Source: Bacteroidia bacterium (lineage in GTDB: Bacteria > Bacteroidota > Bacteroidia > Chitinophagales > UBA2359). From it: a stretch of 64,000 nucleotides of DNA. The notes beneath the pieces are model-generated. The model worked only from the letters and a program-made list of their open reading frames with translations. It was not told where the DNA came from and ran no database searches. The DNA lies in contig JAUHXA010000034.1 in the NCBI GenBank assembly GCA_030427245.1, positions 1 through 64,000 on the forward strand, in the 5' to 3' direction. This document shows positions 7,389 to 28,065 of this stretch, in pieces; position 1 is the first letter of the stretch, and every line of letters starts with the position of its first letter. Position numbers and translations under genes: made by a program.

Positions 7389-8623
7389 TTGTCTTGCTTC
7401 GATTGACGTTCTTTTGTCGCATTATCTGCATTGCTTTCCTTTTCTTTGCGAGAAGTACGGGTAGCCGCCTTACTGCTTTTTGAAGGTTTTTGATTGTATT
7501 CCTTTGAGGAGGAGGAAGATGAAGGGGCACGACTTGGACGAGGGGCTTCCAAAATTGGGCTTGAACTTTCTCCACCTTCGTTGAACGTATCTTTGATAAA
7601 CTCTATAAAATTGCGTTTTGGCGGTTTGGGTTCGGCTTGAACGGTGTAAGGATTCTGTCCACTTTCAGTAGGAGGATTGTAATTAGGCATTGGATAGTTT
7701 GGGCTAGCCTCTTGGCGTTTTTTGCGTTGTTTTGCCGACTCTTTTTTTACTGAAACAGGCTGAACAACAGGATTTTGATTTTGATAAGGTTGCCGAGAGT
7801 TTCCGTTGTTTGGTTTGACTTCGTGAATGTCTTCAACGGTGGCTACTGGCACAACACGAGTTGCAGGATTTTCGTCTTCTTTTGGAAAATTCAAAGTGCC
7901 ATTTCTATCTATTTTTTCTGTCCATTCTCTTCGGTCAATGCTGTTGATGTCTTCAACGGTTGCCACAGGCACAACACGAGTTGCAGGATTTTCGTCTTCT
8001 TTTGGAAAATTCAAAGTACCATTTCTGTCTATTCTTTCTGTCCATTCTCTTCGGTCAATGCTGTTGATGTCTTCAACGGTGGCTACTGGCACAACACGAG
8101 TTGCAGGATTTTCGTCTTCTTTTGGAAAATTCAAAGTACCATTTCTGTCTATTCTTTCTGTCCATTCTCTTCGGTCAATGCTGTTGATGTCTTCAACAGT
8201 TGCCACAGGTACGACTCTTTGTTGAGATGTATTTGAAGGCGGATTCATGCTCGGCAAATCCAATATTTCATCTACAAAAGAACCTGTTTCGGTGTCATTT
8301 GTACTTGTGAGATATTCTTTTGTAGGGATATTGGTATTTTCCGAATAGTTATAGCTTGATTCCCCATAAAAATATTCTGTTGAGGTATTTTGTAAGCTAA
8401 GATCAGGGGAAGGTAGAGCAGAACCGTAGAGATAGGAAGTATTGGTTTCTCCATATCTATAGCTTGTTTCCTGCACAGGGTAATTGGCAATCAATGTATG
8501 ATTGGAGGTATCTTTTTGAGTTGACGTATTGGCATACCCATTCTTTGTTTGGGCTTCCAATAGAGCGGTAAAGCCCAAGCAACAAAAAATAAAAAGCCAA
8601 TAATTGCAGGATAGATTTGACAT
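7385..8623 (-). CDS. Exported protein with three 40-residue tandem repeats
   Basis: A 412-residue protein with a signal peptide (MSNLSCNYWLFIFCCLGFTALLEAQ). A Tyr/Asn/Ser/Thr-rich segment follows, then three near-identical 40-residue repeats beginning RVVPVATVEDINSIDRREWT and a fourth partial copy. The C-terminal third is low-complexity, rich in Pro, Ser, Lys and Gln, and ends strongly charged. No enzyme domain is recognised. The longest frame starts at 8668, but a full promoter (8666-8696) overlaps it, so the ATG at 8623 is chosen. The repeats and composition suggest a surface or periplasmic structural or binding protein; this is inference only. It lies downstream of the SDR gene but has its own promoter. 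Confidence 0.7.
   Translation of the reverse strand: MSNLSCNYWLFIFCCLGFTALLEAQTKNGYANTSTQKDTSNHTLIANYPVQETSYRYGETNTSYLYGSALPSPDLSLQNTSTEYFYGESSYNYSENTNIPTKEYLTSTNDTETGSFVDEILDLPSMNPPSNTSQQRVVPVATVEDINSIDRREWTERIDRNGTLNFPKEDENPATRVVPVATVEDINSIDRREWTERIDRNGTLNFPKEDENPATRVVPVATVEDINSIDRREWTEKIDRNGTLNFPKEDENPATRVVPVATVEDIHEVKPNNGNSRQPYQNQNPVVQPVSVKKESAKQRKKRQEASPNYPMPNYNPPTESGQNPYTVQAEPKPPKRNFIEFIKDTFNEGGESSSPILEAPRPSRAPSSSSSSKEYNQKPSKSSKAATRTSRKEKESNADNATKERQSKQDN
7826..8218 (-). repeat. 120-bp in-frame tandem repeats
   Basis: Three direct repeats of exactly 120 bp (8218-8099, 8098-7979, 7978-7859 in coding order) are followed by a 33-bp partial copy (7858-7826). The first two units are identical over their first 90 or so bases as written on the plus strand. 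The differences cluster in a few positions, giving one Arg to Lys change in the third repeat. The high DNA identity points to recent expansion or gene conversion. Confidence 0.95.
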
Positions 8624-12719: not shown

Positions 12720-12820
12720 CTTGAAGATTTCAGGTGTCCTATTGACAAATTCATAGGGGTTTACACGCCATTTGTAGGGAGGTTCAATTTTAGGGTAAAA
12801 AAATGAGAATTTTATTTTTT

Positions 12821-12876
12821 CCCACTTCCCACTTCCCACTTCCCACTTCCCACTCCTCACTTCCTACTTTTTACTT
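12821..12876. repeat. Heptanucleotide microsatellite (CCCACTT)n
   Basis: Eight consecutive 7-bp units: four perfect CCCACTT, then CCCACTC, CTCACTT, CCTACTT and TTTACTT, decaying from left to right. The array overlaps the last codons and stop of the TonB_C protein gene (stop at 12857-12859) and lies in the spacer before the sigma factor gene. Slippage would alter that spacer length or the protein's C-terminus. Confidence 0.9.
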
Positions 12877-21393: not shown

Positions 21394-21398
21394 AAAAA

Positions 21399-21531
21399 CA
21401 TACTACTGTACATTTTTAATTCAACCACAAAAGGCACAAAGAAAACAAAAGTAAAGACCTGAAATTCAATAACCTCTTTTGTGCCCTTTTGCTACTTTTG
21501 TGGTTCAAAAATCATTTTGTATAGTAGTATG
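21399..21531. repeat. Imperfect 133-bp palindromic intergenic repeat
   Basis: The ends CATACTACTGTACA (21399-21412) and TGTATAGTAGTATG (21518-21531) are inverted copies with one mismatch. Further in, AACCACAAAAG pairs with CTTTTGTGGTT, and a GCACAAAG / CTTTTGTGC pair follows. The two arms differ by indels. No coding potential is seen. The left-end word recurs at 125-137. It resembles dispersed palindromic intergenic elements. Confidence 0.6.
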
Positions 21532-21533
21532 AT

Positions 21534-24687: not shown

Positions 24688-25419
24688 ATGGGACGAGCAT
24701 TTGAATATAGAAAACACAGGAAATTCGCACGTTGGGCGAAAATGGCAAAGGCATTTACCAAGGCAGGTAGAGAGATAGCGATGGCGGTAAAAGAAAGTGG
24801 ACCAGAAATAGACTACAATCCTAGACTTCGTTTGGCAGTACAAAATGCCAAAGCAGTCAACATGCCCAAAGACAGAATTGATGCAGCTATCAAGCGTGCT
24901 TCTGAGAAAGATTCGGGTGATTATGAGGAGGTGACATATCAAGGATATGGCCCTCATGGTGTGGCAATCATTGTGGATTGTGCGACTGACAACACGACTC
25001 GAACGGTGGCAAATGTACGCTCTTACTTCAATAAATATGGCGGTTCTTTGGGCAAAACAGGTTCTCTGGATTATATGTTTGACAAAAAGTGTGTCTTTAA
25101 AATAAGTGGAGAAGAAGTAGATGTAGAAGAATTGGAATTGGAAATGATTGACTATGGGGCAGAAGAGGTTGAAAAATATATAGACGAAGAGGACGAAAAA
25201 GAATATGTGATGATTTATGCCGATTTTACGGATTTTGGGAATATCCAAAAAGCCATAGAGGAAATGAAATTTGAACTAATAGAGGCTCAATATGAGAAGA
25301 ACCCTATGAATACGGTCAAATTGGATGAAGAACAACAGGCGGATTTGGAGAAGTTATTGGAGAAATTTGACGATGACGAAGACGTCTTGAATGTGTTTCA
25401 CAATATTGAAGGAATGTAG
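24688..25419 (+). CDS. yebC: YebC/PmpR family transcriptional/translational regulator
   Basis: A 243-residue member of the YebC/PmpR/TACO1 family. The N-terminal signature MGRAFEYRKHRKFARWAKMAKAF corresponds to the conserved GHSKWxxIKxxK start in its Bacteroidota variant. The helical domain 1 is followed by NMPKDRIDAAIKRA (residues about 68-81) and by GYGPHGVAIIVDCATDNTTRT, the family hallmark. C-terminal domains 2 and 3 complete the usual length. Members were described as transcription factors and more recently as ribosome-associated factors that aid translation of difficult sequences; the role here cannot be decided. It has its own strong promoter. Confidence 0.93.
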   Translation: MGRAFEYRKHRKFARWAKMAKAFTKAGREIAMAVKESGPEIDYNPRLRLAVQNAKAVNMPKDRIDAAIKRASEKDSGDYEEVTYQGYGPHGVAIIVDCATDNTTRTVANVRSYFNKYGGSLGKTGSLDYMFDKKCVFKISGEEVDVEELELEMIDYGAEEVEKYIDEEDEKEYVMIYADFTDFGNIQKAIEEMKFELIEAQYEKNPMNTVKLDEEQQADLEKLLEKFDDDEDVLNVFHNIEGM

Positions 25420-25460
25420 AAGGGTAAGGAAAACCCAAAACTTATCACGAAATCGTGGGA

Positions 25461-25558
25461 TGCAAAACCTGTTCTGTATTTTAATCGGGATTCAAGTAAT
25501 GCTTTGTAAGTGAATAGATTATGTTTCAGGAATGCCTATTTGCATATTTTAGTTTGCC
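25461..25558 (+). repeat. Diverged third copy (C) of the maf-flanking element
   Basis: Bases 25490-25558 align without gaps to the right 69 bp of elements A and B at about 54 of 69 identities, including the terminal TTTAGTTTGCC-like end. A TGCAAA at 25461 lies close to where the left GGCAAA terminus would be, but the left third is not recognisably conserved. It is followed by TAA. It is an older, decayed relative. Confidence 0.6.
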
Positions 25559-25590
25559 TAATTCAAACGGAAAGCAAAATCAATAAACGT

Positions 25591-25928
25591 ATGAAATACC
25601 ATTTTACATTGCTTATCATTTTTGCTGTAATGTCTTGCAATGCCCAAACATTGCCAAGTCCTTCTCTGCAAACCCCTATTTATGAATCCCTATTGAACTT
25701 ACCTCCATCCTCTGCCGAAAAATCACTAATTCTTTCTTCAATGTATTGTACTTCAAAAACCGCAATTCCTTCTACATTGTCCTCACAATCAACAACAAAC
25801 TTATTGAAGGTTACGACCATTTCACCAACACATTATGTCGATACGCACAATGCCTTTTTTTGCAGAATGGAACGAAAAATCAACAAAAAATTTGTGATGC
25901 CTGTTCGGATTCGGTTGGAAGGGTTTTA
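25591..25928 (+). pseudogene. Frameshifted small lipoprotein gene
   Basis: An ATG at 25591 opens a lipoprotein signal (MKYHFTLLIIFAVMSC) and a short continuation, NAQTLPSPSLQTPIYES. After about 25686 the protein-like reading moves to another frame, open from 25686 and reading ITNSFFNVLYFKNRNSFYIV, then NNKLIEGYDHFTNTLCRYAQ, on into the element at 25929. The original frame becomes Ser/Thr-rich nonsense and stops with a TAG (25927-25929) formed at the element junction. This fits a small lipoprotein gene broken by a frameshift and truncated by insertion of element A. An alternative is an intact 113-residue protein. No family was recognised. Confidence 0.45.
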
Positions 25929-26027
25929 GGCAAATTCAAATTAAAAACTCAAATGCAAATTCAAACAATACTTTGTAAGCGAGCAAAGTAAATTGCAGAA
26001 ATGCCTAATTTAATATTTTAGTTTGCC
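25929..26027. mobile_element. 99-bp MITE-like element, copy A
   Basis: The element starts GGCAAA and ends TTTGCC (6-bp terminal inverted repeats). It is flanked by TTA (25926-25928) and TTA (26028-26030), a 3-bp target duplication. Inside, ACTTTG (25970-25975) and CAAAGT (25984-25989) form a central hairpin. It is identical over all 99 bp to copy B at 26744-26842, which has TAA duplications. It is too short to encode a transposase and no related transposase gene is in the window. TWA duplications suggest mobilisation by an IS5-like enzyme; this is inference. Confidence 0.75.
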
Positions 26028-26111
26028 TTAAGTGTTTGCAGTTTTTCTTTCTTACTATCTCGACATCCATATCTGGTGCTATACCCCAAAAAAAAAACTA
26101 TTTTCACCCCC

Positions 26112-26146
26112 ATTATCCATTATCCATTATCCATTATCCATTATCC
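26112..26146. repeat. Heptanucleotide microsatellite (ATTATCC)5
   Basis: Five perfect tandem copies of ATTATCC end one base before the maf start codon (ATG 26148-26150). The array fills the whole leader and ribosome-binding region of maf. Slippage would change leader spacing in 7-nt steps. Confidence 0.95.
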
Positions 26147-26147
26147 A

Positions 26148-26702
26148 ATGTACATTCTTGCCTCCAAATCTCCTCGCCGCCAACAGCTTCTCAAAGAAGT
26201 CGGTCTTGATTTTCGCATTATCACCCAATCCACCGATGAAAGCTACGACCCAACTTTAAGCACCGATGAAATCGTTATCCATATTGCCCGCCAAAAAGCC
26301 AAAGCCGTTTTACCACAAATGAAAGAGAGGGAAGTTATTATTGGAGCAGATACCATTGTCTGTTTGGGAAATACGATATATGGAAAACCAGAAGACGAGC
26401 AAGATGCTTTTCGGATTATTCGAGAATTGACGGGCAAGGCGCATGAGGTGAAAACAGGAGTTTGTTTGTTGTCAAAGCACAAAGAACATACATTCGTCGA
26501 AAACACCAAAGTCTTTTTTGGAGAATTAACCGACTCGCAAATTCACCACTACATCCAAAAATACCAGCCCTATGATAAGGCAGGAGCTTATGCCATACAA
26601 GAATGGATTGGATTGGTTGGTATTGAACGAATTGAAGGAGATTACTTCAATGTGGTGGGCTTGCCAGTGTATCGGCTTTGTCAAGAATTGAAGAACCTGT
26701 AG
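26148..26702 (+). CDS. maf: Maf family nucleotide pyrophosphatase
   Basis: A 184-residue Maf/YhdE-type nucleoside triphosphate pyrophosphatase. Bacterial members hydrolyse dTTP, UTP or modified nucleotides and can act in septum control. The N-terminal ASKSPRRQQLLKEVGLDF is the family signature. STDESYD follows, then IGADTIVC with the catalytic aspartate near residues 69-76, GKPEDEQDAFRIIRELTGKAHEV, and the DKAGAYAIQEW segment near 145-156. The longer frame from 26076 reads through the heptamer repeat as IIHYPLSIIHYP, so the ATG at 26148 (MYILASKSPRR), which matches family N-termini, is chosen. It lies between two copies of a small mobile element with no obvious promoter of its own apart from AT-rich sequence. 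Confidence 0.92.
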   Translation: MYILASKSPRRQQLLKEVGLDFRIITQSTDESYDPTLSTDEIVIHIARQKAKAVLPQMKEREVIIGADTIVCLGNTIYGKPEDEQDAFRIIRELTGKAHEVKTGVCLLSKHKEHTFVENTKVFFGELTDSQIHHYIQKYQPYDKAGAYAIQEWIGLVGIERIEGDYFNVVGLPVYRLCQELKNL

Positions 26703-26743
26703 GAGTAATGTGAAAGCCAGTTGAAGATGATGGAAGCCACTAA

Positions 26744-26842
26744 GGCAAATTCAAATTAAAAACTCAAATGCAAATTCAAACAATACTTTGTAAGCGAGCA
26801 AAGTAAATTGCAGAAATGCCTAATTTAATATTTTAGTTTGCC
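26744..26842. mobile_element. 99-bp MITE-like element, copy B
   Basis: It is identical to copy A (25929-26027) over 99 bp, with GGCAAA/TTTGCC ends and TAA (26741-26743, 26843-26845) target duplications. It inserted at the 3' end of the metallophosphoesterase gene, whose TAG stop (26844-26842) uses the element's last base plus the duplication. The duplicated target preserved the stop codon. Confidence 0.75.
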
Positions 26843-28065
26843 TAATTCTTTCTCTTCAATTCCACTACCGTTATTTCGGGCAAAAAACCGACTCGACCAG
26901 GATAACCCACATATCCAAATCCAGGATTGACATACAAATACTGATTGCCTTCTTGATACAAGCCAATCCACTCTTTGTAGGCATATTTCACAGGACTCCA
27001 CTTATAAAAACGGGTATTGATACCAAATTGAAAACCATGTGTATGTCCTGAAAAAGTAGCTGCAATTTTAGGGAAGAAAGGTAGAACTTCGGCACGCCAA
27101 TGAGAAGGGTCGTGTGAAAGCAGTAATTGAAGGTCGGCATTTTCGGCTCCTGCATAGGCTTTTTTCAGATTGCCATAATTGCGGAAACGTTTGTTGGCAC
27201 TCCAATTTTCTACGCCAATAATGGCCAATTTTTTGCCGTTTATTTCAATGGTTTTGTTTTCGTTGAGCAGTAGCTTCCAGCCCATACGTTTGTGCGTGTC
27301 AATCAGCCATTCAAAGTTTTGTTGTTTGGCCTCTTTGCTTTCCCAAGCCGAATAATCGCCATAATCGTGGTTGCCCGTGATGGAATAAACACCGTACTTG
27401 GCTTCAATTTTTTTGAAAATATCCACAAAAGGTTGAGCTTCTTTGGCGAAGTTGTTGACCAGATCCCCTGTGAAAAAAACAATATCTGGCTGCAAAGCAT
27501 TGATGGTTTCGACTGCTCCTTCAACGGCGACTTTGTTGACCAAGCTACCTGTGTGAATATCCGAAATTTGTATGATTTTGAAGCCTTCAAAAGCTGATGG
27601 TAAATTTTTGATTTGAAGTACATGCTTGCGAGTGAGATAGTTGTGTGCATTGCGAATCATTCCTTTCATCAAGGCAACAAATGGAATACTTGCAGCAGCT
27701 AAAGCCAATTGACTAAGTAATTTGATACGTTCAATAGACGTACTTCCTTCGCCAGAAACAACTACCCACAGCCAACGCCCCAAACGGAATACATCGTCAA
27801 TCATCAAAAAACCAATCACAACAAATTTGGCGAGATAGACACTCAAGAAAAAACCGCCAACATAAGAGCGTATTTTTTTGTTCCATGTCCGAAAACCCGT
27901 CACAATTCCCACTGCCAAAACGAGATACGCAAGTAAGGTGATACTCCAATAGATTTGATAGACCCATTCTTGTTGGGTAGCTGTCTTGAAAGCTTGATAA
28001 GCGTAGCTATCAATTAGCAGTAAAAGTACAATTGGTAGGGTTAAAGCAAACAATCTTTGTAGCAT
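26842..28065 (-). CDS. Membrane-anchored metallophosphoesterase
   Basis: A 407-residue calcineurin-like phosphoesterase of the YkuE/YaeI-like membrane class. About four membrane segments occupy residues 1-150 (such as LFALTLPIVLLLLID and LLAYLVLAVGIVTGF). The catalytic domain follows from about 155. Metal ligands are visible in QISDIHTGSL (D, H), FTGDLVNN (D), ITGNHDYGDY (N, H), LLLSHDPSHW (H) and FSGHTHGFQFG (H, H), the complete set of five motifs. Relatives hydrolyse UDP-diacylglucosamine or other phosphoesters; the substrate here is unknown. The stop codon abuts MITE copy B. It is divergent from the M1 peptidase gene. Confidence 0.92.
   Translation of the reverse strand: MLQRLFALTLPIVLLLLIDSYAYQAFKTATQQEWVYQIYWSITLLAYLVLAVGIVTGFRTWNKKIRSYVGGFFLSVYLAKFVVIGFLMIDDVFRLGRWLWVVVSGEGSTSIERIKLLSQLALAAASIPFVALMKGMIRNAHNYLTRKHVLQIKNLPSAFEGFKIIQISDIHTGSLVNKVAVEGAVETINALQPDIVFFTGDLVNNFAKEAQPFVDIFKKIEAKYGVYSITGNHDYGDYSAWESKEAKQQNFEWLIDTHKRMGWKLLLNENKTIEINGKKLAIIGVENWSANKRFRNYGNLKKAYAGAENADLQLLLSHDPSHWRAEVLPFFPKIAATFSGHTHGFQFGINTRFYKWSPVKYAYKEWIGLYQEGNQYLYVNPGFGYVGYPGRVGFLPEITVVELKRKN

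Follow-up and report, generated by a model that had tools for sequence, protein, structure and literature searches.

In the stretch of DNA analysed here (the window; positions 1 to 64,000 of contig JAUHXA010000034.1, 64,000 nucleotides), an intact maf gene (26148-26702, + strand; Pfam Maf PF02545, 1e-63, residues 3-183 of 184) lies between two identical 99-bp elements. The locus raises the question of whether such a pair reflects the duplication of a segment or two transposition events and, if the latter, what moved the elements and how their target sites were chosen. We favour a model in which the pair belongs to a MITE family mobilised in trans, the DDE transposase responsible being encoded at another site and having a preference for stop codons. 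Taken as a whole, we put the probability of this explanation at roughly 0.85.

The identical pair and its neighbours

Copy 1 (25929-26027) and copy 2 (26744-26842), both on the + strand, are identical over 99 bp by alignment, start with GGCAAA and end with TTTGCC, as a sequence-only reading of this DNA had described. They are in direct orientation with a spacing of 815 bp and maf between them. Copy 1, which has the right end TTTTAGTTTGCC and shares 100% identity with 11 or more further genomic copies, is flanked by TTA at 25926-25928 and 26028-26030, and copy 2 by TAA at 26741-26743 and 26843-26845. The 100-bp outer flanks of the two copies are unrelated (identity 30% and 27%), which argues against a segmental duplication and for two separate insertions. 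Identical copies with unrelated flanks and their own duplications thus agree with the proposal that these insertions were recent and independent. The central hairpin reported for the 99-bp element is also present (25969-25990 in copy 1, + strand; TACTTTG-TAAGCGAG-CAAAGTA), both in the sequence and in folds. Taken over the entire strand, the element folds just slightly better than shuffled sequences do (z -1.9 as RNA and -1.5 as DNA).

A third, decayed copy had been placed at 25461-25558. An older copy does exist here, but its correct limits are 25428-25558 (131 bp, + strand), with TAA at 25425-25427 and 25559-25561. It is a diverged long form, scoring 66 bits with the family sequence model described below, in which the extra left hairpin module remains. 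Just upstream of it ends a YebC/TACO1-family gene (24688-25419, + strand; PF01709 and PF20772). Copy 1 sits at the end of a short gene remnant (25591-25929) that has a putative lipoprotein start, MKYHFTLLIIFAVMSCNAQ, an apparent frameshift and no Pfam match. Copy 2 was inserted at the stop codon of a minus-strand ORF encoding a calcineurin-like phosphoesterase (26842-28065; PF00149). The geometry of the direct copies would allow maf to be lost by recombination between them, as had been suggested, but maf is intact and we saw no sign of deletion.

Other repeats are found near maf and elsewhere. A perfect heptamer array (CCATTAT x 5.4; 26110-26147) abuts the maf start codon, and a change in its copy number could alter maf translation. 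Further heptamer arrays occur at 12819-12869 of the window (TTCCCAC) and on contig C94 (TACATCC), and a tandem repeat with a 120-bp unit (3.2 copies, 95% match) occupies 7827-8209 of the window.

A modular family of short elements

A search for further copies of the 99-bp sequence had been set beforehand as a check, and many were found. In the 7.58-Mb draft assembly (187 contigs), blastn returned 43 matches, 20 of them with at least 98% identity over 98-99 bp. With a family sequence model built from 27 diverse copies, 82 matches were found at E values up to 0.01, about 70 of them below 1e-5, giving a family of about 70-80 dispersed, non-coding copies that are typically 24-145 bp long. Perfect 3-bp duplications (TAA, TTA and once CTA) flank 18 of the 20 young copies (those at least 98% identical; binomial p of about 4e-20 against 1/16), and nearly all copies have TAA or TTA as the target triplet, the exceptions being CTA once and TAG once. 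The combined pattern of terminal inverted repeat and target, TNAGGCAAANTNAAA, occurs 97 times in the genome compared with 2 occurrences of the reversed pattern, and the abundance of the repeat is well beyond chance. The terminal inverted repeats, GGCAAATTCAAAT and GGCAAACTAAAAT, are imperfect past 6 bp, and the flanks of the copies are unrelated, other dispersed repeats excepted. At one locus (L003), a young copy has inserted into the TTA next to an older copy, which means that this target has served for two insertions. Identity among copies spans a wide gradient from young to decayed, and with the genome-wide copies it bears out the proposed MITE family with TWA duplications and older decayed members. 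The family is a genuine, recently active MITE family.

Modules have been gained and lost within the family. The longest common form, of 145 bp, carries two hairpins, AC(C/T)TGTCCCG..CGGGA, placed after CAAA and before TT. One or the other has been lost from the 123- and 120-bp forms and both from the 99-bp form, and shorter forms of 74, 52 and 24 bp also occur. In an alignment, variation is lowest at the right-hand end TTTAATATTTTAGTTTGCC, and the central hairpin is different between subfamilies. The hairpin module TGTCCCG..CGGGATT has 24 occurrences in the genome (loci L100-L123), about half of them outside MITEs; possibly it is a small palindromic repeat in its own right, picked up by the MITE on two occasions. 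Two MITE copies are themselves interrupted, one (L055, 1185-1513) by an element bounded by TGCTTGAACGGAAAC..GTTTCCGTTCAGGCA, with TATTTTAG as its apparent duplication, and the other (L024, 1501-1701) by a hairpin element with AAAAAATAACTC..GAGTTATTTTTT.

Could the elements instead be structural or regulatory repeats, such as an RNA hairpin or a terminator, that spread by some other route? They do form hairpins, are located in 3' regions and contain the extra TGTCCCG..CGGGATT hairpins. However, transposition is indicated by the terminal inverted repeats, by the lack of similarity between flanks and by the perfect duplications of 3 bp, no Rfam match reached the gathering score in the window between 24000 and 29000, and no RNA fold with compensated pairs is conserved across the family. 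We regard this alternative as highly improbable.

To assess how widely the family occurs, we searched related genomes. There were no real homologues in 60 relatives by blastn, and none in 19 same-family genomes with the family model, which gave a single match at E 0.008. An exact 20-mer gave two chance matches among genome contigs, both without element context, and plasmids and viral contigs yielded nothing relevant. Within the sample searched, the family is confined to this species. The pattern of terminal inverted repeats TWAGGCAAANTNAAAT was enriched in both members of the sister genus g11 (G010 and G015; 11 matches each compared with 0 in controls). These matches are a different MITE family, of 44-171 bp with ends GGCAAA(C/T)TAAAAT and exact TWA duplications in 9 of 12 elements, and the ends GGCAAAYTAAAAT are common to both families. 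Two related genera therefore harbour separate MITE families, and enzymes of one kind would seem to have mobilised both.

Insertions on stop codons

For 44 copies with a duplication, the flanks were joined to reconstruct the site before insertion, and ORFs were then called with a simple longest-ORF rule in short flanks from one genome. About a third of the rebuilt sites (15 of 44) coincided with the stop codon of an adjacent ORF, compared with 44-55 of about 910-1035 control sites (non-coding TAA/TTA in the same loci; Fisher p 3e-9 to 5e-11 for ORF cut-offs of 60-130 aa). When calculated by locus for TAA/TTA targets only, 14 insertions on stop codons were observed and 4.06 expected (p 4.8e-7). 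In the sister genus, 2 of 12 rebuilt sites were on a stop codon, a small sample.

Every one of these insertions keeps a stop codon, formed either by the TAA (once TAG) of the duplication or by TA plus the first G of the element. Because both element ends begin with G, the duplicated TAA, or TA with that G, restores the stop and leaves the protein unaltered. In copy 2, for example, the phosphoesterase stop codon TAG (26844-26842) consists of TA from the duplication and the first G of the element, and at another locus (L105) a copy is found where the stop codons of two convergent genes overlap. Alignment to solved relatives extends to residue 209 of 212 for a uridine kinase and to 350 of 360 for a GDPD, that is, almost to the last residue, indicating natural C-termini. 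Insertions of this kind add 99 bp, hairpin included, to the 3' untranslated regions of genes.

What accounts for the excess is less certain. Selection by itself, with coding and regulatory insertions purged and silent ones at gene ends left behind, would be one cause. Just 8 of the 44 insertion sites are inside ORFs compared with about 70% of control TWA sites, so purging does occur, and in absolute numbers older copies contribute more to the excess (10 of 21 on stop codons, compared with 4 of 13 young copies). Yet the equally harmless sites 3-60 nt past the stop received only 5 insertions, compared with 15 on the stop codon itself, despite containing about four times more target triplets (p 9e-7), and the young copies alone already depart from expectation (4 compared with 0.75; p 0.004). 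Selection as the sole cause is, in our view, unlikely. The excess could also follow from local sequence only, if purine- or G-rich DNA followed by (C)TWA were all that mattered and gene ends supplied it by coincidence. The target context is indeed oriented: it is G- or purine-rich to the left of the element, where G makes up 22-43% at most positions compared with about 15% in controls, with C enriched at -1 and T at +2; many insertion sites read '...CAG TAA' followed by GGCAA, and context alone strongly improves a model of site choice. Against this, with a context matrix derived from sites other than stop codons, about 8% of insertions would be expected on stop codons, compared with the 42% seen (15 of 36 non-coding sites), and a stop coefficient of 1.85 +/- 0.44 remains in a conditional logit that includes the +/-8-bp context. 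An origin in local sequence only thus appears doubtful.

Because the equally harmless sites nearby downstream are not favoured, we lean towards a target preference of the missing transposase as the source of the excess, rather than survival or a sequence context wider than the +/-8 bp modelled; the statistics come from one genome, and survival selection is only partly separable from targeting. In its most specific form, the transposase would recognise gene ends and insert precisely, in one orientation and preferentially on stop codons, the G-first ends rebuilding the stop and proteins staying unaltered; we put this forward tentatively, as possible but short of an even chance. If true, it would mean that a simple DDE transposon has a safe-site strategy built in, different from Tn7-like targeting, which is directed next to one particular gene. 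More generally, the excess suggests a simple way for a transposon to spare its host harm and makes a concrete, testable prediction on how targets are chosen. No report of MITE insertion at stop codons was found among the open-access papers searched, which is weak evidence of novelty.

A proposed mobilising transposase

The sequence-only reading had assigned the elements to IS5/Harbinger-type transposition and proposed looking for a transposase gene with terminal inverted repeats that begin with GGCAAA. We searched the whole draft genome with four Pfam models (PF13359, PF01609, PF13586 and PF05598). DDE_Tnp_4 (PF13359) and DDE_Tnp_1_2 (PF13586) had 0 matches each, and DUF772 (PF05598) had none over the cut-off. 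DDE_Tnp_1 (PF01609) identified three genes, all of them lacking flanking GGCAAA ends: one in an IS1634-like element, one that is decayed and one that is an IS4-like fragment. Scans for pairs of terminal inverted repeats in the fetched loci revealed no transposase enclosed by paired family ends. With these four models, the draft of 187 contigs therefore yielded neither the expected gene nor any autonomous element sharing the ends; draft assemblies can miss a multi-copy IS. A 480-bp head-to-head pair of terminal inverted repeats on C94 was rejected as the ancestor, as it has no ORF and contains a heptamer array.

The ends and the TWA target agree with the IS5/Harbinger assignment, but the four Pfam models revealed no partner transposase with these ends in the assembly, and the attribution, drawn from ends and target, is plausible. 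Ends that start with GG together with a TWA duplication fit the pattern of IS5 (ISL2/IS1031) and PIF/Harbinger elements. This match argues against mobilisation by a DDE enzyme of another kind, outside the models searched (ISAzo13, IS982, IS1595 or others), an option that we rate as improbable, even though no partner emerged from four IS5-related or general DDE models. Canonical Harbinger elements produce 3-bp target site duplications (PMC12730594).

In the model that we favour, non-coding elements of 24-145 bp with GGCAAA...TTTGCC ends would depend for their movement on a DDE transposase acting in trans, with cleavage at a TAA/TTA triplet that becomes duplicated on insertion. We infer that this enzyme was IS5-related (ISL2/IS1031-like) and is now either lost from the genome or missed by the draft assembly. 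It would prefer, in an oriented manner, (C)TWA(N)T preceded by G- or purine-rich DNA, and would have an independent preference for stop codons, at which insertions would leave the protein unaltered through the restored stop.

Like the MITEs of the IS5 family (ISL2/IS1031-like) and of PIF/Harbinger, the elements are short and non-coding, with GG-starting terminal inverted repeats and 3-bp TWA duplications. They differ in that no parental transposase was found, in that the ends GGCAAAYTAAAAT are unmatched to a named IS, and in their oriented G-rich target context and stop-codon excess. Judged as a MITE family, it is clean but ordinary, comprising copies both young and old and showing modular growth or loss, and the stop-codon excess is its unusual part. 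The RUP and BOX repeats of Streptococcus pneumoniae are similar in being intergenic, about 100 bp long and moved in trans, and BOX is modular too; unlike the present family, RUP is moved via a known parental IS, IS630-Spn1, duplicates TA and has different ends. A further lineage-restricted bacterial MITE is MITECca01 of Cardinium, which is present in one strain only; it is about 240 bp long and has an IS982-family parent in the same genome (PMC9769881), whereas this family is 24-145 bp long and no parent was found.

Two other mobile or repeated elements came to light in the fetched loci. The IS1634-like element (L159, 1355-4145; G000, contig C146) has the terminal inverted repeat TCTTGACTTTGACAGTTG, a transposase ORF of 577 aa and, on its flanks, a direct duplication of about 390 bp, of which 300 bp were shown to be identical. 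This agrees with what is known of IS1634, whose target duplications are long. A second palindromic repeat of about 140 bp, ATACTACTGTACAAAAT...TGTACAGTAGTAT, has about 10 copies in the fetched loci. Its derivation (ATACTACTGTACA...) from the IS1634-like element was rejected, as the matches represent a half copy inside the duplicated target of that element. This repeat is probably another MITE family, with copies at 21395-21533 of the window (- strand), at 1626-1760 of L010 and at other sites.
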